In this document: piece after piece, positions 26,115 to 62,775 of the stretch | Layout of the letters: each line of letters opens with the position of its first letter | How positions within the stretch are numbered: the stretch's first letter is position 1 | Assembly (NCBI GenBank): GCA_036000965.1 | Contig: DASYUT010000188.1 | Span: 1 to 64,000, forward strand | Direction: 5' to 3' | Source of the DNA: Actinomycetes bacterium | Lineage (GTDB): Bacteria > Actinomycetota > CALGFH01 | DNA length: 64,000 bases | Made by a program: the position numbers and the translations under genes | The notes under the pieces: generated by a model | The model's input: the letters and a program-made list of their open reading frames with translations, nothing else | Told to the model about the DNA's origin: nothing | Database searches by the model: none

Positions 26115-27164
26115 TCAGCCCTCCTGGCGGAGCCGGTCGAGGACGGCCCCGAGCTCGGCGGGGAGGGGGTCGGTGACCGTCACCTCCTGGCCGGTGGCCG
26201 GGTGCCGGAACGCCAGCCGCCAGGCGTGCAGGAACGGGCGGCCGAGGCCGAGCCTGGCCGCCAGCGCCGGGTCGGCGCCGTAGGTGCGGTCGCCGGCGAC
26301 AGGGTGGCGCAGGTGGGCCAGGTGGACCCGGATCTGGTGGGTGCGGCCGGTCTCGAGCCGGGCCTCGACCAGGTCGGCGGCCCGCAGCCGCTCCTCGACC
26401 TGCCAGTGGGTGACCGCCCGCCGGCCCGAGGCCACCACCGCCATGCGCTTGCGGTCGCGCGGGTGGCGGCCGACCGGCGCGTCCACGGTCCCGCTGCCAG
26501 CGGCCAGGTGGCCCTGGACCAGCGCCAGGTAGCCCCGCTCGACCCGGTGGGCGGCGAGCTCGCGGGCGAGCGCGAGGTGGGTCGCGTCGTCCTTGGCCAC
26601 CACGAGCAGCCCGGAGGTGTCCTTGTCGAGGCGGTGGACGATCCCCGGCCGGTCGCTCCCGCCCGCCGCCGACAGGCCGGTGCCGGCCACCTCGCCCGAA
26701 GCGCGCGAGGCCGAATCGCCTGAAGCGCGCGAGGCCACCTCCCCTGCAGCCGGGGGGGCCACCTCCCCCGAAGCTAATGGGGCTGCCTCGCCCGAAGCCG
26801 GTGCGGCCCGGCCGAGCAGGGCGTTGACCAGGGTCCCGGCGGGGTGCCCGGGGGCGGGGTGGACGACCAGCCCGGCCGGCTTGGCCACCACCAGCAGGTG
26901 ATCGTCCTCCCAGCGGACCGCGAGCGGCACGGCCTCGCCGGCCGGCGGGCCGGCCTCGGGCTCGGGCGGCGGGTCCCAGGCCAGAACCTCCCCGCCGTGG
27001 AGCCGGTGCGACTTGGGGCGGGGCCGGCCGTCGACCAGGACCCGGCCGTCGGCCGCCCAGCGGGCGGCGGCAGCGCGCGACACACCCGCGAGCTCGGCCA
27101 CCACCTCGTCCAGCCGCCGCCCCGCGCTCCCGGAGGGCACCGGCCAGGTGCGGGCGGGGCTCAC
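26115..27164 (-). CDS. rluD: RluD-type 23S rRNA pseudouridine synthase
   Basis: The 349-residue protein has an N-terminal S4 RNA-binding domain (GRRLDEVVAELAGVSRAAAARW) and a RluA-family catalytic domain with LLVVAKPAGLVVHPAPGH, the catalytic Asp in HRLDKDTSGLLVV, RGYLALVQG, and RTHQIRVHLAHLRHPVAGD. The GTG overlaps the lspA stop (GTGA), and this lspA-rluD pairing is common. Five 8-residue repeats (ASGEVAPP type) are inserted directly before GIVHRLDKDTSG, in the loop leading to the active site. Which uridines it modifies cannot be told from the sequence. Confidence 0.95.
   Translation of the reverse strand: MSPARTWPVPSGSAGRRLDEVVAELAGVSRAAAARWAADGRVLVDGRPRPKSHRLHGGEVLAWDPPPEPEAGPPAGEAVPLAVRWEDDHLLVVAKPAGLVVHPAPGHPAGTLVNALLGRAAPASGEAAPLASGEVAPPAAGEVASRASGDSASRASGEVAGTGLSAAGGSDRPGIVHRLDKDTSGLLVVAKDDATHLALARELAAHRVERGYLALVQGHLAAGSGTVDAPVGRHPRDRKRMAVVASGRRAVTHWQVEERLRAADLVEARLETGRTHQIRVHLAHLRHPVAGDRTYGADPALAARLGLGRPFLHAWRLAFRHPATGQEVTVTDPLPAELGAVLDRLRQEG
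26690..26809 (-). repeat. 24-bp tandem repeat inside rluD, five units
   Basis: Five contiguous 24-bp units start at 26690, 26714, 26738, 26762 and 26786. They code for 8-residue blocks of the type ASGEVASR, and divergence between units suggests an older expansion than those in murB or murG. The array lies just before the catalytic HRLDKDTSG motif. Confidence 0.88.
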
Positions 27165-27721
27165 GCCCGGGGGGTGGAGCGCGGGCCGGTGCCGGTACCG
27201 ACGTCGCTGGCGTCGGAGGCGGGGGGGCCCCGGTCGCCGCCCTCCTGGCCGGCCGGCTCGGCGCGGCCGAGCAGGAACGCGAGCAGCAGCCCGCCGATCA
27301 CGATGCAGGAGTCGGCCACGTTGAACACCGGCCACGGCCCAACCTTGACGAAGTCGACCACCTCACCCCGCAGGGGGACGTCGCCGCGGAACAGGCGGTC
27401 GAGCAAGTTGCCGATGGCGCCGCCGAGCAGCAGCCCGAGCGCGAGCAGCACCGGCCGGCCCCTGGCCCGGCGCGCGCTCCACATGATCGCGACCGTGACC
27501 ACCGCCGCCATCACCGCGAAGAAGTACGGGGCGCCGGTGAACAGCGAGAAGGCGCCCCCGGAGTTGGTGGTGTAGCGCAGGTCGACGAAGCTGCCGACCA
27601 GCCGGAGCGGCGGCCGGCCGGCCAGGGTGCGCACGACCACGAGCTTGGTGAGCTGGTCGACCGCCACGATCAGCGCGGCGGTGCCGTAGACGAGGGCGAG
27701 CCGCCCGGCGGTCCCCCTCAT
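27161..27721 (-). CDS. lspA: Lipoprotein signal peptidase II
   Basis: LspA is the membrane aspartyl protease that cleaves the signal peptide of diacylated prolipoproteins. The 186-residue protein has four helices. Family motifs are VDQLTKLVVV, the NxGxAF signature TNSGGAFSLF, the first catalytic Asp in GNLLDRLFRG, and the second in VFNVADSCI. The ATG shares a base with the traR stop (TGATG). A Pro/Gly/Asp-rich tail of about 30 residues after the last helix runs into rluD. Confidence 0.96.
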   Translation of the reverse strand: MRGTAGRLALVYGTAALIVAVDQLTKLVVVRTLAGRPPLRLVGSFVDLRYTTNSGGAFSLFTGAPYFFAVMAAVVTVAIMWSARRARGRPVLLALGLLLGGAIGNLLDRLFRGDVPLRGEVVDFVKVGPWPVFNVADSCIVIGGLLLAFLLGRAEPAGQEGGDRGPPASDASDVGTGTGPRSTPRA

Positions 27722-28758: not shown

Positions 28759-31700
28759 ATGGGGCAGTTCCCCGAAGTCGACCCCCAGCTCGACCTGCCC
28801 GCCCTGGACCAGCGGGTGCTCGCCCTGTGGCGCGAGCGCAAGGTCTTCGAGCGCTCCCTGGACCAGCGGGTGGGCGCCGAGCCGTTCGTCTTCTACGAGG
28901 GCCCGCCGACCGCCAACGGCCGGCCTGGCGTGCACCACGTGGAGGCCCGGGTCTTCAAGGACCTGTTCCCGAGGTTCAAGACGATGCGCGGCTACCGGGT
29001 CGACCGCAAGGGCGGCTGGGACTGCCACGGGCTGCCGGTCGAGCTGGAGGTGGAGAAGGAGCTCGGCCTCACCCACAAGCGGGACATCGAGGCGTACGGC
29101 ATCGAGGCGTTCAACGCCCGCTGCCGGGAATCGGTCGAGCGCTACGTCGACGTGTTCGAGGACCTGACCGAGCGGATCGGCTTCTGGATCGACACCGGCC
29201 AGGCCTACCGCACGATGGACTCGTCCTACGTCCAGTCGGTGTGGTGGGCGCTGGCCGAGCTGTACCGCCGGGACCTCCTGTTCGAAGACTACAAGGTCCT
29301 CCCCTACTGCCCGCGATGCGGCACCGGCCTGTCCGACGCCGAACTCGGGCTGGACGCCTACCGGGAGGTCGACGACCCCTCGGTGTACGTGCTGCTGCCG
29401 GTGACCTCCGGGCGGCTGGCCGAGGAGCGGGCCGCGCTGCTGGTGTGGACGACCACGCCGTGGACGCTGGTGTCGAACGCGGGCGTGGCAGCCGGCCCGG
29501 GGATCGACTACGTCCTGGTCGAGGCGGCCGGGCCGGGCGGCGGCACCTACCGCATGGTGCTCGCCGAGGCCCGGGTGGCCGAGGTGGTCGGCGAGGGCGC
29601 CCGGCCCCGCGTGCTGCGCCGGGTGCCTGTCGAGGAGCTGGTCGGCACCACCTACCAGCGGCCGTTCGAGCTGGTCGAGGTGGCCCCCGAGGAGGCCGAG
29701 CGCGCCTGGCGGGTGGTCACGGCCGACTACGTCACCACCACCGAGGGGACCGGGCTGGTCCACACCGCTCCCGCCTACGGGCCCGAGGACCTGGAGGTGG
29801 GCCGGCGCGAGGGGCTGCCGGTGCTGCACCCGGTCGACCGGGAGGGCCGCTTCGCCGAAGGCACCGGCGACCTCTCGGGACTGCACGTGAAGGCGGCCGA
29901 CCCGGTGATCATCGAGCGGCTCTGGGCGGACGCGGTGCTGTGGCGGGAGGAGACCTACCGCCACGACTACCCGCACTGCTGGCGCTGCAAGACGCCGCTG
30001 CTGTACTACGCGCTCACCTCCTGGTACGCGCGGACCACGGCGGTGGCCGACCGCATGCTGGCCGAGAACGCGCAGGTGGGCTGGCGGCCGGAGCACATCC
30101 GTGACGGCCGCTTCGGCGACTGGCTGGCCAACAACGTGGACTGGGCCCTGTCGCGGGCGCGCTACTGGGGCACGCCGCTGCCGCTCTGGCGCTGCGGCGA
30201 TGGCCACGTCACCGCGGTCGAGAGCCTGGCCGACCTGTCAGCCAGGGCGGGCCGGGACCTGTCCGGGCTCGACCCGCACCGGCCATACGTCGACGAGGTG
30301 GCGTTCGCCTGCCCGGTGTGCGGCCTCGAGGCGCGCCGCGCGCCCGACGTGATCGACGCCTGGTTCGACTCCGGCTCCATGCCCTTCGCCCAGTGGGGCC
30401 ACCCGCACACGGGCAGCAGGGAGCTGGAGCGGGCCTTCCCGGCCGACTTCATCTCCGAGGCGATCGACCAGACCCGCGGCTGGTTCTACTCGCTGCTGGC
30501 CGTGAGCACGCTGCTGTTCGACCGGTCGCCCTACCGCAACGTGGTCTGCCTGGGGCACATCGTGGACCGGGACGGGCGCAAGATGTCCAAGAGCCTCGGC
30601 AACGTGCTCGACCCGTTCGACCTGCTCGACCGTTACGGGGCGGACCCGCTGCGCTGGTTCATGCTGGCCACGGGCTCGCCGTGGGTGTCGCGTCGCCTGT
30701 CGCCCGAGGCGCTCGGGGAGGTCACCCGGTCGTTCTTCCTCACCCTGTGGAACACTTATGCCTTCTTCACCCTCTACGCCCGGCTGGAAGGGTTCGACCC
30801 GAAAGCGCCAGAGCAGGGCGAGGCGGGCCTGCTCGACCGCTGGGCGCTGGCCAGGCTGCGCGAGACCGTGGCCGGGGTCACCGCCGACCTGGACGCCTAC
30901 GACGCCACCGCGGCCGCGCGCCGGCTGTCGGCGCTCGTGGACGACCTGTCAAACTGGTACGTGCGCCTGTCGCGGCGCCGCTTCTGGCGCGCGGCCGGGG
31001 CCGGGGCCGACGCTGCGGCCGCCTTCCGGACCCTGTGGACCTGCCTGCGCACCACGGCCCTGCTGCTGGCCCCGTACGCGCCGTTCGTGGCCGAGGAGCT
31101 CTGGCAGGGGCTGGTGGTCGCGGTCGACCCGGACGCCGGCGACTCGGTCCACCTGGAGAGCTGGCCGGCGGACCGGCCGGCCGAGGGCGACGCCGAGCTG
31201 CTGGCCGCCATGGCCGAGGCGCGCCGGCTGGTCGGGCTCGGACGCCAGGCCCGCGCCGAGGCGCGGGTGAAGGTGCGCCAGCCGCTGGCCCGGGCCCTGG
31301 TCAGCGTCGACCTGGCCCTCCGCCCGGCGGTCGAGCCGCTGCTCGACCTGGTCGCCACCGAGCTGAACGTGAAACGGGTCGAGTTCGCCGAGGCCTCGCG
31401 TACCTCTACCAGCGGGGCCTCTGGTGGCGGGGCCTCGCGCGCCTCGGGCGGCGGGGCCTCGCGCGCCTCGGGCGGCGGGGCCTCGGGCGGTGCGGCCGGG
31501 CTGGTCGCGTACCGGTTGACGCCCAACTTCCGCGCGCTCGGGCCGCGGTTCGGCAAGCAGGCCCAGGCGGTCGCCGCGGCGGTGCGCGCCGCCGACGCCG
31601 GTGCGCTCGCCCTGGAGCTGCTGGCCGGCGAGTCGGTCGAGGTCGACCTGCCCGGCGCCGGCCCGGTCCGGCTCGGGCCGGAGGAGGTCGGCGTGACCGA

Positions 31701-32046
31701 GGAGCCGGTGGTCGGCTGGCGGGTCGTCCGCGACGGGGCCGCCAGCGTCGCCCTCGACCTCGACGTCTCCCCCGAGCTGCGCCGGGAGGGGCTGGCCAGG
31801 GACGTGGTCCGGGCCGTCCAGGACCTGCGCAAGTCGTCCAGGCTGGCGGTGGACGACCGCATCGACCTCGCCGTCAAGGCCGAGGGCGAGGTGGCCCGGG
31901 CGCTCGAGGACCACCAGGAGTACGTGCTCGGCGAGACCCTGGCCGCCTCGCTGTACCGGACCCCCCAGGGCGACGGCTACGATGCCCGGGTGGAGCTGGA
32001 CGGGCAGCCGGTGCGGATCTGGCTCCGCCCCCGGCCGCGCGCGTAA
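28759..32046 (+). CDS. ileS: Isoleucyl-tRNA synthetase
   Basis: IleS charges tRNA-Ile and edits valine. The 1,095-residue class I enzyme has the HIGH region as GPPTANGRPGVHHVEA (about residues 48-63), WDCHGLPVELEVEKELG, the editing domain with LLVWTTTPWTL and GTGLVHTAPAYG, FISEAIDQTRGWFY, and KMSKSLGN (about 610). The C-terminal part has the anticodon-binding domain and ends in a PVRIWLRPRPRA tail. GGAGGAG precedes the ATG and is the likely target of the T-box. A Gly/Ala/Ser/Arg repeat (GASRASGG) is inserted at residues about 886-913, between ELNVKRVEFAE and the following C-terminal module. Confidence 0.97.
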   Translation: MGQFPEVDPQLDLPALDQRVLALWRERKVFERSLDQRVGAEPFVFYEGPPTANGRPGVHHVEARVFKDLFPRFKTMRGYRVDRKGGWDCHGLPVELEVEKELGLTHKRDIEAYGIEAFNARCRESVERYVDVFEDLTERIGFWIDTGQAYRTMDSSYVQSVWWALAELYRRDLLFEDYKVLPYCPRCGTGLSDAELGLDAYREVDDPSVYVLLPVTSGRLAEERAALLVWTTTPWTLVSNAGVAAGPGIDYVLVEAAGPGGGTYRMVLAEARVAEVVGEGARPRVLRRVPVEELVGTTYQRPFELVEVAPEEAERAWRVVTADYVTTTEGTGLVHTAPAYGPEDLEVGRREGLPVLHPVDREGRFAEGTGDLSGLHVKAADPVIIERLWADAVLWREETYRHDYPHCWRCKTPLLYYALTSWYARTTAVADRMLAENAQVGWRPEHIRDGRFGDWLANNVDWALSRARYWGTPLPLWRCGDGHVTAVESLADLSARAGRDLSGLDPHRPYVDEVAFACPVCGLEARRAPDVIDAWFDSGSMPFAQWGHPHTGSRELERAFPADFISEAIDQTRGWFYSLLAVSTLLFDRSPYRNVVCLGHIVDRDGRKMSKSLGNVLDPFDLLDRYGADPLRWFMLATGSPWVSRRLSPEALGEVTRSFFLTLWNTYAFFTLYARLEGFDPKAPEQGEAGLLDRWALARLRETVAGVTADLDAYDATAAARRLSALVDDLSNWYVRLSRRRFWRAAGAGADAAAAFRTLWTCLRTTALLLAPYAPFVAEELWQGLVVAVDPDAGDSVHLESWPADRPAEGDAELLAAMAEARRLVGLGRQARAEARVKVRQPLARALVSVDLALRPAVEPLLDLVATELNVKRVEFAEASRTSTSGASGGGASRASGGGASRASGGGASGGAAGLVAYRLTPNFRALGPRFGKQAQAVAAAVRAADAGALALELLAGESVEVDLPGAGPVRLGPEEVGVTEEPVVGWRVVRDGAASVALDLDVSPELRREGLARDVVRAVQDLRKSSRLAVDDRIDLAVKAEGEVARALEDHQEYVLGETLAASLYRTPQGDGYDARVELDGQPVRIWLRPRPRA
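31414..31497 (+). repeat. 24-bp tandem repeat inside ileS
   Basis: Two perfect 24-bp units (31429-31452 and 31453-31476), flanked by partial units, code for the 8-residue block GASRASGG in a C-terminal linker of IleS. Confidence 0.92.
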
Positions 32047-32885: not shown

Positions 32886-33812
32886 TCAGTCGTCGTGGCG
32901 CAGGCGGTCCACCCGGTCGCGGCCGTTGTGGCCGAGCTGGTCGCCCTCGCGCAGAGCCTGGTAGGAGTTGGTCTGCCTGGCGCCGGTGGGCAGGGCGGGA
33001 AGGTCGTCGCTACCCGGCAGCGGTCGCGAGTTGTTGCTCCCGAGCCCGGGCGGCGGGCTCGGGGCCACCGGACCGGACGGGGCCGCGTCCTCCAGTGCCT
33101 TGAGCTGGCCTTCCACGAAGCCGCGGAGGCGGGCCCGGTAGTCGCGCTCGAAGGCGCGCAGCGCCTCGATCGAGCTCTCGAGCTCCTGCCGGCGACGGGC
33201 CACCTGCTCGGTCGCCTGGGCAATCTGCATGCGGGCCTGCTCCTCGGCCACGCGGGCGCGCGCCTCGGCCGACTGGATGCGCTCCTTGTAGCGGGTCTCG
33301 AGCCCCTCGGTCAGCTCGCGGGCGCGAGCCTGTGCGGTCTCGGTGACCTCGCGGGCGCGCATCTGGGCGGCCTCGGTGACCTCGCGGGCGCGCATCTGGG
33401 CGGCCTCGGTGACCTCGCGGGCGCGCATCTGCGTCTGCTCGGTCGTGTTCTTCGAGCGCGCCTCGGCCTCGGTCACCATTGACTTGGCCTTGGACTTGGC
33501 CTCCTCGACCGTCTGGTCCGCCATGCGCTGGGCCATCACCAGGGCCCGGGCGATGGCCTCCTCCCCGGCCCGAGGCTCAGCCTGGGACATGGGGGGCGGC
33601 ACCGGCGCGACGGACGGGGGCGGGGGCTGTGGAGGCGCTGCCGTCATCCCTCCGTTCGCGGCCTGCTCGCGAAGCCGGCTCACCTCGTCCTGGAGCCGGG
33701 TGAATTCCTCTGTGACCTGGTCGAGGAAGGTATCCACCTCGTGCATGGCGTAGCCACGCATGGCCTTGGTGAATTCCTTATGTTGGATGTCCAACGGCGT
33801 CAGTGGCGGCAT
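32886..33812 (-). CDS. divIVA: DivIVA/Wag31-type polar scaffold protein
   Basis: DivIVA marks curved membranes and cell poles and directs wall growth in actinobacteria. The 308-residue protein has the N-terminal membrane-binding domain (PLTPLDIQHKEFTKAMRGYAMHEVDTFLDQV), a Pro-rich linker near 55-75, then a long coiled coil to about residue 240 and a polar tail. The coiled coil contains the 11-residue unit AQMRAREVTEA repeated three times. AAGGAG lies six bases before the ATG. It follows sepF and yggT, as in many actinobacteria. Confidence 0.95.
   Translation of the reverse strand: MPPLTPLDIQHKEFTKAMRGYAMHEVDTFLDQVTEEFTRLQDEVSRLREQAANGGMTAAPPQPPPPSVAPVPPPMSQAEPRAGEEAIARALVMAQRMADQTVEEAKSKAKSMVTEAEARSKNTTEQTQMRAREVTEAAQMRAREVTEAAQMRAREVTETAQARARELTEGLETRYKERIQSAEARARVAEEQARMQIAQATEQVARRRQELESSIEALRAFERDYRARLRGFVEGQLKALEDAAPSGPVAPSPPPGLGSNNSRPLPGSDDLPALPTGARQTNSYQALREGDQLGHNGRDRVDRLRHDD
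33309..33440 (-). repeat. 33-bp tandem repeat in the divIVA coiled coil
   Basis: Two identical 33-bp units (33342-33374 and 33375-33407), flanked by diverged copies, code for the 11-residue coiled-coil unit AQMRAREVTEA. Eleven residues are three helical turns, so added copies lengthen the rod without breaking the heptad-like pattern. Confidence 0.92.
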
Positions 33813-39133: not shown

Positions 39134-40230
39134 CGCTCGACCTCCGCGGCAGGGGCGTCGAAGTCGCCGACGAGCTGCACCTCGGTGCGCAGGGAGATGC
39201 CCAGCTCGTCGCGGGCGCGGCGCTGCGCGAGCCGGATGAGCGCCAGCACGTCCGCCGAGGTGGCGCCCTCGGCGGCCACGATGAAGTTCGCGTGGACCTC
39301 GCTGACCCGGGCGCCCCCGCGCCGCTCCCCCTTCAGGCCGAGCTGCTCGACCACCCGGCCGGCGGCCGTCCCGGGCGGGTTGGCGAACACGCTGCCGCAG
39401 TTGGGCTGGTTGACGGGCTGGTTGTCGCGCCGCCAGCGGCGCGCCTCGTCGATCTCGGCCCGCACCTCGGCCTCGGGGGCCGGATGGAGCGCGAACCGGG
39501 CCGCGGTCACCACCGCGCCCGCCGGCAGGGCCGAGCGCCGGTAGCCGAAGCCGAGCTCGTCCGGCTCCATCCGCTCCGGCTCCCCCGCCGACGGGCCGGC
39601 CAGCGGGACCACCTCGGCCCAGACCAGCCGGTCGGCCAGCTCCGAGCCGTGGGCGCCGGCGTTCATGCGGACGCCGCCACCGACGCTGCCCGGGATGGCC
39701 ACGGCGAAGGCGATGCCGCCGAGCCCGGCCGCCGCGGAGCGGGACGCCACGCTGGGCAGCGGCGTGGCCCCGCCCGCCTCGAGCTCCTCGCCCTCGATCC
39801 GGATGCCGCGGAACCGCTGCCCGAGGTGGAGCGCGACGCCTGGCCAGCCGGCGTCGGCGACCAGCATGTTGGAGCCGCGCCCGACGACCAGCAGGGGCAG
39901 CGGCACCTCGGCCAGGGTCGCGGCCAGGGCGGCCAGGTCGGCGACCTGCTCGGCCCGCAGGAACAGCCGGGCCGGCCCCCCGAGCCGGAACGTGGTGAGC
40001 GGCGCCAGCGCGAGGTCGCGCCGCACCCGCCCCGGGCAGCGCACCGACAGCAGCGCCCAGGCCTCCTCCAGGGCCGCGGCGTCGACCGGGCCGGGCAGCC
40101 CCGAGGCACCCCCCGGGCCGGGCAGCCCCGAGGCACCCCCCGGGCCGGGCACCCTCGAGGCATCCTCCGGACCGGGCGGCTGCCCGGGACCGGCGACGCT
40201 CGCGCCTTGCCAGCGCCTGGGCAGGCTCAT
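39130..40230 (-). CDS. murB: UDP-N-acetylenolpyruvoylglucosamine reductase
   Basis: MurB is the FAD enzyme that makes UDP-MurNAc with NADPH. Motifs are TTFRLGGPA, VVGRGSNMLVADAGWPGV, AVAIPGSVGGGVRMNAGAHG, the substrate Tyr/Arg region GFGYRRSAL, and NQPNCGSVFANPPG with the proton-donor Ser. This is a type II MurB lacking the extra domain of type I. The ATG overlaps the murC stop (ATGA). The 366-residue protein has about 70 extra N-terminal residues, including three 9-residue repeats (GPGGASGLP). Confidence 0.96.
   Translation of the reverse strand: MSLPRRWQGASVAGPGQPPGPEDASRVPGPGGASGLPGPGGASGLPGPVDAAALEEAWALLSVRCPGRVRRDLALAPLTTFRLGGPARLFLRAEQVADLAALAATLAEVPLPLLVVGRGSNMLVADAGWPGVALHLGQRFRGIRIEGEELEAGGATPLPSVASRSAAAGLGGIAFAVAIPGSVGGGVRMNAGAHGSELADRLVWAEVVPLAGPSAGEPERMEPDELGFGYRRSALPAGAVVTAARFALHPAPEAEVRAEIDEARRWRRDNQPVNQPNCGSVFANPPGTAAGRVVEQLGLKGERRGGARVSEVHANFIVAAEGATSADVLALIRLAQRRARDELGISLRTEVQLVGDFDAPAAEVER
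40086..40166 (-). repeat. 27-bp tandem repeat in the murB N-terminal extension
   Basis: Units at 40086, 40113 and 40140 are contiguous; the first two are identical and the third has several changes. They code for 9-residue blocks GPGGASGLP ahead of the FAD domain. Confidence 0.93.
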
Positions 40231-41729: not shown

Positions 41730-43234
41730 CGCCGGCCTCCGGGGTCGGTCTGGTCGCCGCCCTGGAACCAGCCCACGAACTCCTGGGTGGAGGCGATGTC
41801 GGTTGCGGGGCCCGGCCTGGCGAGCGGCCGGTCCGCGTCCGCCCCCGGCCGCCGGTCCGGGCGCGGCTGTTGGTCCGGGCCCGTGCCCGGCTGCCGGTCC
41901 GCGTCCGTGCCCGGCCGCCGGTCCGGGCGCGGGCCCGGCTGTTGGTCCGGGCGCGGGCCCGGCTGTTGGTCCGGGCGCGGGCCCGGCTGTTGGTCCTGGC
42001 CCGGGCCAGGTGGTGGCTGCGGCCCCCGCCCGCCGCCGAGGGACCGCGGTGCGGGGCGGCGGCCGGCGGGCAGCGCGTCGAGCACGAGGGAGGCCATGTC
42101 CTCGGCGGCCCGGGGGTGGGCGAGCGAGAGCATGGCCCGGCCCATGCGGGCGAGGGTGCCCGGGTCGGAGAGCAGCGGCGCGGCCGCGGCGGCCAGGGCC
42201 GGGCCGTCGAGGTCGCCGTCCTCGACGACCAGCGCGCCGCCGGCATCGGCGGCGGCCCGGGCGTTGCCCCGCTGGTGGTCGTTGGTGGCGTGGGGCAGGG
42301 GCACCAGCACGGCCGGCATGCCGACCACGGTGAGCTCGGCCATGGTCATGGCGCCGGCCCGGGTGAGGGCGAGGTCGGCGGCGGCATAGGCGAGGTCCAT
42401 GCGGTCGACGAAGGGGGTGACCCGGACGACCAGGCCGCGTGCCTCGGGGTTGGCGGCCTGCCAGGCCTCGCGCACCGCAGCCTCGTCCCGGCGCCCGCAG
42501 GCGTGGAGGACCTGCATGCCCCACGGGTGGGGCCAGCTCGCGGTGGCGGCCACCACCGCCTGGTTGACCCGGCGGGCGCCCTGGCTGCCGCCGAACACCA
42601 GCAGGGTGCGCCGGCCGGGCTCCAGGCCGAAGGCTGCCAGTGCCTCGGTGCGCAGGGCGGCCCGGTCGAGCCGGAGCAGCTCGGGCCGGACCGGGTTGCC
42701 GACCACCACCGTCTTGCCGGCTGGGAACGCCCTGGCCGCCTCGGCCACCCCGAGGGCGACCCGGCTGGCGACCCGGACCGCGAGCTTGTTGGCCAGGCCG
42801 GCCACGGCGTTCTGCTCGTGGAGCACGACCGGCACTCCGGCCAGCCGGGCGGCCACGGCCACGGGCAGGGTGACGTAGCCGCCCATGCCGGCGACCACGT
42901 CGACCCGGCGGCGCTGGATCAGCCGCCAGGCGGCTACCGTGCCGGCCAGCGCGGCGAACGGCGCGAGGACGGTCTCGAGCGACAGCCGGCGCGACAGGGG
43001 CAGCACCGGCAGGAGGTCGAGGGCGTAGCCGGCCTCGGGCACGACCCTGGTCTCGATCCCCCGCGAGGTGCCCGCGAAGGTCACGGTGGCGGCCGGCTCG
43101 CGCTCGAGGATCGTGCGGGCCACGGCCAGGCCGGGCACGACGTGGCCGCCGGTCCCTCCGGCCGCCACGAGCACCCGGGGGCCGCCGCGCCTGGCGGCGC
43201 GGGTGGCCGGTGGGCGGTTGGAGTCAGGTGTCAT
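41726..43234 (-). CDS. murG: Lipid II glycosyltransferase MurG
   Basis: MurG moves GlcNAc from UDP-GlcNAc onto lipid I at the inner membrane face. The GT-B protein has AAGGTGGHVVPGLAVA, AGMGGYVTLP, LHEQNAVAGLANK, VVGNPVRPELL, FGGSQGARRVN and TRAGAMTMAELTVVGMPAVLVPLP. A strong AGGAGGT lies six bases before the ATG, which is inside the end of ftsW. The family usually ends near residue 370-380. This protein has 502 because of a tail of about 110 residues built from 8-residue QQPGPRPD-type repeats, ending in an unrelated polar segment (DIASTQEFVGWFQGGDQ). Confidence 0.96.
   Translation of the reverse strand: MTPDSNRPPATRAARRGGPRVLVAAGGTGGHVVPGLAVARTILEREPAATVTFAGTSRGIETRVVPEAGYALDLLPVLPLSRRLSLETVLAPFAALAGTVAAWRLIQRRRVDVVAGMGGYVTLPVAVAARLAGVPVVLHEQNAVAGLANKLAVRVASRVALGVAEAARAFPAGKTVVVGNPVRPELLRLDRAALRTEALAAFGLEPGRRTLLVFGGSQGARRVNQAVVAATASWPHPWGMQVLHACGRRDEAAVREAWQAANPEARGLVVRVTPFVDRMDLAYAAADLALTRAGAMTMAELTVVGMPAVLVPLPHATNDHQRGNARAAADAGGALVVEDGDLDGPALAAAAAPLLSDPGTLARMGRAMLSLAHPRAAEDMASLVLDALPAGRRPAPRSLGGGRGPQPPPGPGQDQQPGPRPDQQPGPRPDQQPGPRPDRRPGTDADRQPGTGPDQQPRPDRRPGADADRPLARPGPATDIASTQEFVGWFQGGDQTDPGGRR
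41800..42006 (-). repeat. 24-bp tandem repeat in the murG C-terminal tail
   Basis: The cleanest units start at 41935, 41959 and 41983, with older diverged copies extending left to about 41820. The 8-residue unit is QQPGPRPD. It makes an extended Pro/Arg/Asp/Gln tail on the otherwise normal MurG. Confidence 0.93.
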
Positions 43235-50271: not shown

Positions 50272-52176
50272 TCACAGTTCGTGTCGTCGCGGCGGCGCCG
50301 CGCCGGCCGGCCCGGGTCCGGGACCGCCGGCGGCAGCCGTCCCACCCGTGGTGGACGGCCCGGCGTCCGCGGTGGCCTCGCGCGCCTCAGGCGGGAGGAC
50401 CGGCCGGTCCGGCGGCACCTTGAGCCGGGCCAGGGCGTAGCCGGCCACCTCGCGGAACACCGGGGCGGCGACCACCCCGCCGAAGATCGCCTTGGCCGGC
50501 TGGTCGAGCACGACGGCGACGACCACGGCCGGGCGCTGGGCGGGCGCGAAGCCGATGAAGGAGGCCGTGTAGGCGCCCGGGAGGTAGCCGCGCCCCTTCG
50601 GGTTGGGCACGCGCGCGGTGCCCGTCTTGCCCGCGACCGACCAGTCGGCCAGGGCCGCCCCGGTCCCGGTGCCCTTGCCCTGCACCACGCCCTCGAGCAG
50701 GCGGGTCAGGGTGTGGGCGGTGCGGGCCGACAGCACCCGCCGGGCGGGCTTGCGCTCCACCGGCTGGAACCGCCCGCGCTGGTCGACCGTGCCGTGCAGG
50801 ATCGACGGGGGCGCGAGCACGCCGCCGTTGGCGACCGCGGCGTAGACCCCCGCCATCTGCAGGGAGGTGGCCGCCACACCCTGGCCGATCGCGTTGACCC
50901 CCAGGTCGGTGCAGCGCCAGTCGCGCACCGGGGTGACGATGCCCGCGGACTCGCCGGGCAGGTCCACGCCGGTGCGCCTGCCGTAGCCGAAGGCGCGCTC
51001 GGCCCTGGCCAGCCGCTGGGCGCCGAGCCGGGCGGCGACCTTGATGGTGCCGACGTTGGACGACTGGGCCACCACGTCCGCGAACGACATCGACTCGGTG
51101 GCGTGCTCGTGGGAGTCGCGGAAGGTCTTCACCCCGGGGCAGAGCTCGATCCGCGACGGGACCAGCATGCGGGTGCCCGGGGTGACGATGCCGGCCTCCA
51201 GCGCGGCCGCGGCCGTGATCGTCTTGTTGGTCGAGCCGGGCTCGAACACGTTCTCCACGGCCCGGTTGCGGACCGCGTCGGGCGTGGCCGCCGCGAACCG
51301 GTTGGGGTCGAAGCCGGGCACGTTGGCCATGGCCAGGACCTCGCCGGTGGAGGGGCTGAGGACCACCACCGAGCCGCCCTTGGCCTGCCACCTGCGCACC
51401 GCCAGGAACAGGGAGCGCTCGGCCACGAACTGCAGCTGCTGGTCGATGGTGAGGACCACGTCGGTGCCGGGCTGCGCCGGCTCCACCGAGCGGTGGCCCT
51501 GCGGGATGGGCCGGCCGGCCGGGTCCTGCTCGAGCAGCAGCCGGCCGGGTCGGCCCCGCAGCAGGGAGTCGTACTGCAGCTCGGTGCCGGCCAGGCCGCG
51601 GCCGTCGTCGCCGACGAACCCGAGCACCTGGGAGGCGACCGTGCCCGACGGGTAGTTGCGGACGGTGTCGTTCAGCACGCCGATCCCGGGCAGCCGGAGG
51701 CGCTCCACCGCCGCGCCCCGGGCGACCGGGATCTTCCTGGCCAGGTACAGCCAGGGCTTGCCGGAGGCGAGCTTCCTGTGCAGCTCGGCGGCGGGGCGGC
51801 GCAGCAGCGGGGCCAGGCGGCGGGCGCTGGCGGCCGGGTCGGTCACCAGCCGGGGCTGGGCGTAGACGGTGCGGGCGTCCACCGACAGGGCGAGGTCGCC
51901 GCCGTGGCGGTCGAAGACCCGGCCCCGGTCGGCCGGCAGCTCGACCGCGCGCAGGCGCTGCCTGGCCGCGGCCTGGTCCAGCGGGCCGGCATCGAGCACC
52001 TGCAGCACGACCAGCCGGCCAGAGATCGCGAGGAAGGCGAGCACCGTCGCGCCGAGCACGACCAGCAGCCGGTTCGCGCCGGTCGCCCGGCGCGAGCGCC
52101 GCCGGCGCACCCGCACCCCCCGAGGCACGGGACCTCGTCGCTGCTTCTGCACTGGCTCCCCCATCTCTCGGTGCAT
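50272..52176 (-). CDS. ftsI: Septal penicillin-binding protein (FtsI/PBP3 type)
   Basis: This is a monofunctional class B transpeptidase that crosslinks septal wall. The 634-residue protein has a basic cytoplasmic start, one helix (LLVVLGATVLAFLAISGRLVVLQ), a dimerisation domain opening with ELPADRGRVFDRHG, and the transpeptidase domain. Active-site motifs are SxxK as PGSTNKT (about residue 315), SxN as QSSNVGT (about 371) and KTG as AGKTGTAR (about 515). A Pro/Gly/Ala tail of about 45 residues ends it. The start is uncertain: ATG 52176, ATG 52164 or a later GTG. It lies 123 bases after ftsL. Confidence 0.95.
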   Translation of the reverse strand: MHREMGEPVQKQRRGPVPRGVRVRRRRSRRATGANRLLVVLGATVLAFLAISGRLVVLQVLDAGPLDQAAARQRLRAVELPADRGRVFDRHGGDLALSVDARTVYAQPRLVTDPAASARRLAPLLRRPAAELHRKLASGKPWLYLARKIPVARGAAVERLRLPGIGVLNDTVRNYPSGTVASQVLGFVGDDGRGLAGTELQYDSLLRGRPGRLLLEQDPAGRPIPQGHRSVEPAQPGTDVVLTIDQQLQFVAERSLFLAVRRWQAKGGSVVVLSPSTGEVLAMANVPGFDPNRFAAATPDAVRNRAVENVFEPGSTNKTITAAAALEAGIVTPGTRMLVPSRIELCPGVKTFRDSHEHATESMSFADVVAQSSNVGTIKVAARLGAQRLARAERAFGYGRRTGVDLPGESAGIVTPVRDWRCTDLGVNAIGQGVAATSLQMAGVYAAVANGGVLAPPSILHGTVDQRGRFQPVERKPARRVLSARTAHTLTRLLEGVVQGKGTGTGAALADWSVAGKTGTARVPNPKGRGYLPGAYTASFIGFAPAQRPAVVVAVVLDQPAKAIFGGVVAAPVFREVAGYALARLKVPPDRPVLPPEAREATADAGPSTTGGTAAAGGPGPGPAGAAPPRRHEL

Positions 52177-62598: not shown

Positions 62599-62620
62599 CA
62601 GCGGCACGCCAACAGATGGG

Positions 62621-62775
62621 TTGTCAGCTGCCAGGTGGTTGTCAGCTGCCAGGTGGTTGTCAGCTGCCAGGTGGCTGTCAGCTGCCAGGTGGCTGTCAGC
62701 TGCCAGATGGTTGTCAGCTGCCAGATGGTTGTCAGCTGCCAGGTGGTTGTCGGCTGCAGACGGTTGTCGGCTGCT
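62621..62775. repeat. 18-bp intergenic tandem repeat, seven units plus two degenerate
   Basis: Units of TTGTCAGCTGCCAGGTGG start at 62621, 62639, 62657, 62675, 62693, 62711 and 62729. They differ only at the first base (T or C) and at one G/A position. Two degenerate copies follow to about 62775. Each unit carries the palindrome CAGCTG, so sites repeat every 18 bases. The array lies between the dinB 3' end and the DUF3040 promoter. Confidence 0.97.

Follow-up and report, generated by a model that had tools for sequence, protein, structure and literature searches.

A 24-bp repeat inserted in frame in an rluD-like gene recurs at many sites of one actinomycete genome

How does a run of five eight-residue repeats come to lie inside a conserved RluD-type enzyme, and is it a feature of that protein or of something larger? 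The window, by which we mean the whole 64,000-nucleotide stretch of DNA that was analyzed, carries on its minus strand a gene whose product has the domains of the RluA family, with PF00849 (PseudoU_synth_2) at 101.4 bits against a cut-off of 26.8, and PF01479 (S4) at 30 bits against a cut-off of 22.8. The best solved relatives by sequence were RluD chains (RluD 1v9f, 3.4e-56), and residues H181, R182 and D184 of the HRLD motif, which contains the catalytic Asp184, were invariant across 26 aligned sequences. The gene start given below is provisional, and the longest open frame in the ORF list starts at 27335. The features of this gene are:

26115..27176, minus strand: rluD-like gene (RluA-family pseudouridine synthase with S4 domain; PF00849 7.2e-29, PF01479 4.2e-07; ORF list)
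26604..26645, minus strand: GIVHRLDKDTSGLL motif with the catalytic Asp (residue 184), from the invariance noted above
26685..26804, minus strand: 120-bp insertion of five 24-bp units, 40 residues, from an exact 40-residue gap against both same-family genomes
26693..26711, minus strand: intact core copy of the dispersed repeat described below, 0 mismatches
26717..26735, minus strand: intact core copy, TCA variant, with 1 mismatch to the first pattern and 0 to the R pattern

The five eight-residue units are real. They are read in the minus-strand frame as APASGEAA-PLASGEVA-PPAAGEVA-SRASGDSA-SRASGEVA, and Tandem Repeats Finder detected a 24-bp period at 26685-26774 and 26733-26799; the earlier note had placed them at 26690-26809, which is the same block shifted by five bases. 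The insertion comprises residues 125-164 of the product (P0001). When this protein was compared with RluD from two same-family genomes, it had exactly 40 additional residues following residue 124. Apart from this, residues 61-260 aligned with a single one-residue gap, at 174, and the DNA alignment showed a clean 120-bp gap. The alignment with relatives that the earlier note had proposed as a check bears out an insertion, since the block is missing from both same-family genomes and was present in 0 of 25 more distant aligned relatives.

The position of the insertion differs somewhat from what had been claimed, namely that the array lies directly before GIVHRLDKDTSGLL, the most conserved part of the enzyme. 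It does lie upstream of the motif, but 13 residues (GTGLSAAGGSDRP) intervene between the insert and GIVHRLD, and the distance to the catalytic Asp184 is 19 residues. Likewise, the array is inside a conserved enzyme, but it occupies a variable stretch outside the active-site motif; in the 25 relatives, this stretch consists of 4-6 residues of variable sequence and slightly variable length between a conserved NALL and LSGxGG. The insert begins after a helix (residues 116-124), and because the sequence that directly follows it, LSAAGG, belongs to a conserved stretch, the harmlessness of the insert is not self-evident.

The fold of the protein was predicted with the insert present, using AlphaFold2 and an alignment of 26 sequences. 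pLDDT was below 50 at residues 128-165 and at least 90 for 235 of the 353 residues, and the model matched solved RluD structures (2ist, TMt 0.75; Neisseria RluD 11wx_C, TMt 0.88, rmsd 2.4). Since confidence falls below 50 at the insert while the model matches solved RluD, the insert is most likely a floppy loop beside an intact catalytic fold, in keeping with the looped-out, in-frame insertion that the earlier note had envisaged. As modeled, the loop would hang outward beyond helix 116-124, and the catalytic pocket should still function, so that catalysis is predicted to be undisturbed.

The main point, which the earlier note had missed, is that the repeat is not a feature of RluD but a genome-wide dispersed element, and a second array of the same family lies within the window, 5 kb from rluD, in ileS. 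The ileS array has two intact cores, at 31432 and 31456, and is located between the anticodon-binding and C-terminal domains. The additional features are:

28759..32046, plus strand: ileS (isoleucyl-tRNA synthetase; PF00133 1.2e-111, PF08264, PF19302)
31396..31491, plus strand: 96-bp ileS insertion of the same repeat family, 32 residues, from a 32-residue gap against both same-family genomes
50375..50393, plus strand: single core copy, in antisense orientation to a minus-strand penicillin-binding transpeptidase gene (50275-51891), in the part encoding the C-terminal tail

The window is also rich in other GC-rich tandem repeats, with 73 Tandem Repeats Finder rows. Among these are an 18-bp repeat at 62619-62774 (8.7 copies, 93% matches), a 33-bp repeat at 33305-33431 (3.8 copies, 91%) in a predicted minus-strand coding segment (32889-33779), and 27-bp and 24-bp arrays of other sequence at 40086-40177 and 41827-42007, respectively.

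An intact unit of the dispersed repeat consists of a 21-nt core, GGCCTCGCGCGCYTCRGGCGR, plus three variable bases, making 24 bp. Allowing up to one mismatch, GCCTCGCGCGCNTCRGGCG had 80 matches in the 6.47-Mb genome versus 1 for a reversed-pattern control, and the two same-family genomes had 0 and 1. Each of the other 146 relatives had at most 5 matches, for a sum of 66 versus 29 in reversed-pattern controls, and the core pattern is therefore slightly above control in these relatives too. A looser pattern, at up to two mismatches, gave 113 genome matches versus 14 for its control, and given these counts some of the two-mismatch singletons will be chance matches. In the 64-kb window, 13 core matches were found at up to three mismatches, compared with 3.61 expected, and none of 100 shuffles reached 13. 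The exact two-unit pattern had no matches in viral_contigs or genome_contigs, a search that divergent copies would escape and for which the genome's own records may be missing from genome_contigs; among the papers listed by a literature search there was no earlier report of the 24-bp repeat of RluD and ileS. A protein scan of genome_contigs, where the genome's own or near records may be missing, gave only relatives at 48% identity or less, and an actinobacterial lineage is suggested by gene content and by the best match in a plasmid collection, a Nonomuraea record.

Copies of either orientation were spread over many contigs, some intergenic and others within conserved genes, and their flanks look unrelated in the site listing. 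Close copies were present at 53 sites, 31 of which were arrays of 2 to 7 units, mostly at 24-bp steps. In 22 singletons strong conservation was limited to the 21-nt core and dropped to either side, apart from a weak G/C bias ∼24-27 nt on. The three-base spacers were alike within arrays L004, L010, L073 and L084 and unlike within L016 and L018; the likeness within several arrays suggests that some have grown by duplication of units. Degenerate units also occur within arrays. One array, at 1562-1676 of locus L073 (genome G000, contig C263), has five near-identical units at exact 24-bp steps, lacks a coding signal, and is situated ∼100 bp upstream of a dapB coding segment.

This distribution bears on whether anything moved between sites at all, because GC-rich low-complexity sequence might have undergone a separate local tandem expansion at each place. 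The abundance of unrelated tandem repeats in the window (the 73 rows above) is what gives this explanation some appeal. It is nevertheless very unlikely, since a single core is shared by sites of either orientation on many contigs, singletons among them, and since empty sites differ by whole units, as described below. The window provides its own control in the 18-bp repeat at 62619, for which all 7 genome matches (up to two mismatches) were in a single array, confined to one place with no dispersal.

The core is imperfectly palindromic (GCCTnnnGCGCnnnAGGC, as read from the sequence), and this, together with its strong conservation in singletons, raised the possibility that it serves a function as DNA, such as protein binding or chromosome organization, and was multiplied because it is useful, with the peptides encoded in genes as a by-product. 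We consider this unlikely, since the degenerate units in arrays, the insertion of whole units into enzymes and the near absence of the repeat from same-family genomes better fit a recent spreader. The palindrome did not translate into folding or into inverted organization: the hairpin of the unit was no stronger than those of shuffles (z 0.02), two two-unit strings were only slightly better than shuffles (z -0.94 and -1.83; 11 and 36 of 200 shuffles folded as well), and a search 200 bp around each of 53 sites found no inverted copy of the core, the arrays being direct.

Intragenic copies, identified by codon scores and Pfam, were present in genes for PurL, a homocitrate-synthase-like protein, a MobA-like transferase, a xanthine-dehydrogenase type protein and a P-type ATPase, and further ones in genes for acyl-CoA dehydrogenase, citrate synthase, a histidine kinase, a GNAT protein, a prolyl-oligopeptidase type protein, a glycosyltransferase and others. 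We compared seven genes, including rluD, with the same-family genomes. The P-type ATPase and the penicillin-binding protein gave no usable site, and the tail of the latter could not be aligned to relatives. For the other five genes an empty site could be identified, and there the inserts were 40 residues in RluD, 32 in IleS, 16 in PurL, 32 in citrate synthase (aligned as gaps of 2 and 30) and 8 in the MobA-like protein, in every case (5/5) a multiple of 8 residues.

Reading frame was analyzed at 69 sites, taken from among the matches listed at a tolerance of up to two mismatches (113 in total), with L182, L184, L188, L194, L205 and L207, which have no site of the stricter core, dropped. A site was taken as genic in-frame if the sequence to its left and right was coding in the same frame; 20 sites were of this class, 19 were non-coding, 28 were classed as edge, and 2 of the 69 were genic with an apparent frame shift. 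The RluD array, with its weak upstream flank score, was classed as edge and is outside the 20 in-frame sites. At 17 of these 20, the core was read in two of the six frames, giving an ASRASGE-type peptide or, antisense, a SPEAREA-type peptide (binomial p 2.8e-6, for a frame pair picked post hoc from 15 possible pairs); the exceptions were L087, one array of L195, and L197. When only close copies (up to one mismatch) were considered, the two favored frames accounted for 12 of 15 (binomial p 2.9e-4, the pair again chosen post hoc). Unit spacings were divisible by 3 in 28 of 28 cases at in-frame genic sites versus 10 of 21 at non-coding sites (Fisher p 1.2e-5, with spacings within one array not being independent); beyond the 20 in-frame sites, the share was 33 of 47. 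This pattern is what purifying selection on genic insertions would leave, and the choice of frame may reflect only which insertions survive.

The same results address an artefact of assembly or binning, a concern because the genome is a draft of 358 contigs with an estimated contamination of 4.19%. Such an origin is extremely improbable, because spacings at in-frame genic sites keep frame (all 28, in conserved genes) and copies are on many contigs, and the 148 other genomes had at most 5 matches each. For the RluD array itself, a frameshift or misassembly, the outcome that the earlier note had said would refute its reading, appears unlikely from the sequence, since the insert preserves the reading frame, as does the unit in many genes on other contigs.

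We conclude that the RluD array is probably an insertion of a small dispersed repeat that is specific to the lineage and compatible with coding. The evidence for mobility comes from one genome of the species, in which no polymorphism or new insertion was seen. The repeat may spread through a form of copying in which whole 24-bp units arrive at new sites, after which slippage or unequal crossing-over would lengthen the arrays. Since each 24-bp unit amounts to eight codons, and since most frames are disfavored, the genic copies that survive would add a hydrophilic, flexible stretch of Ala, Ser, Gly, Arg, Glu and Pro. Candidate routes of copying are the switching of whole-unit templates from existing arrays, perhaps aided by GGCC, and transposition in trans.

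A rival reading is a REP/REPIN-type element, a short imperfect palindrome mobilized by a single-copy RAYT (Y1 tyrosine transposase). The short 21-nt imperfect palindrome, the many copies and the mixture of singletons and clusters would suit such an element. However, a PF01797 profile search of this draft assembly, in which a gap is possible, found no intact RAYT-type transposase, and the sole PF01797 (Y1_Tnp) match in the genome (L138:2212-2487, contig C31 of G000) is partial (profile 26-120) and has an in-frame TGA. The direct arrays with no inverted copy within 200 bp, the shuffle-level hairpin of the unit and the many intragenic copies also argue against a REP/REPIN element, which we regard as improbable. 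No duplicated flank common to the 22 singletons was seen.

Regarding template switching, each intact unit starts with GGCC. A further GGCC was located 24 nt after that of the last core at 13 of 53 sites, versus 0-4 sites at the other offsets tested. At the empty site of purL, GGCC was present in one same-family genome and TGCC in the other. The excess at +24 nt would fit template switching from arrays, or a target preference like that reported for SDR5 at HIP1 sites, but is only a lead, since decayed further units could mimic the signal. A more specific form of the dispersed-repeat reading is possible, although on balance we doubt it: the repeat would be a self-spreading coding minisatellite, with whole 24-bp units copied from arrays, perhaps by GGCC template switching without a dedicated transposase, giving frame-neutral eight-residue loops in essential enzymes. 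If the dispersed-repeat reading is right, a 24-bp repeat can move through a genome while carried in conserved enzymes (RluD, IleS, PurL and citrate synthase), since it spans a whole number of codons and both of its favored frames encode flexible, hydrophilic peptides. It would then offer a compact natural system for asking how loops are added to proteins by mobile DNA, as the Rickettsia elements had already prompted, and how elements that are too short to resemble transposons spread.

The repeat is best read as resembling small dispersed repeats in kind, that is, as SDR-like and akin to the cyanobacterial SDRs and the Rickettsia palindromic elements. Cyanobacterial SDRs are ∼20-27 nt long and dispersed within a lineage. 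They were reportedly described by Elhai et al. in 2008, with SDR5 as an example. The likeness drawn here is one of comparable size and of dispersal in one lineage. Here, the unit recurs at unrelated sites of one lineage (a 21-nt core with 22 singletons, and 80 copies, compared with no more than 5 in any of 148 other genomes), and insertion is exact relative to empty orthologous sites in all five judgeable genes of seven tried. The repeat differs from SDRs in forming tandem 24-bp arrays and in entering conserved enzyme genes as whole eight-codon blocks. SDR5 is reported to insert precisely inside HIP1 sites (PMC4390886), which may be set beside the possible GGCC preference here, itself only a lead.

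REP/REPIN-RAYT systems are similarly short, many-copy and imperfectly palindromic (PMC3116915), but here no intact RAYT was found in the draft assembly, arrays are direct without a near inverted partner, and copies are often intragenic; neither a RAYT gene with adjacent REPs nor an inverted-doublet organization (0/53 sites) was observed. PARCEL repeats share with the present repeat coding tandem units and dyad symmetry, and are thought to be mobile within genomes. They are a motif of 25 residues that occurs in membrane proteins and in ORFs of unassigned function in diverse microbes (PMC2996958), whereas the unit here encodes 8 residues, lies inside housekeeping enzymes, and was found in one genome. 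Rickettsia palindromic elements (RPEs) are 105-146 bp with long stem-loops (PMC2229807), and the 24-bp tandem unit, with no stable hairpin of its own, resembles them in neither length nor stem-loop. The likeness to RPEs is in location: RPEs are reported in frame within 19 genes, and the present repeat, too, is both intergenic and carried in frame by conserved protein genes. According to the same review, an RPE-bearing guanylate kinase stays active, with its substrate affinity changed (PMC2229807).
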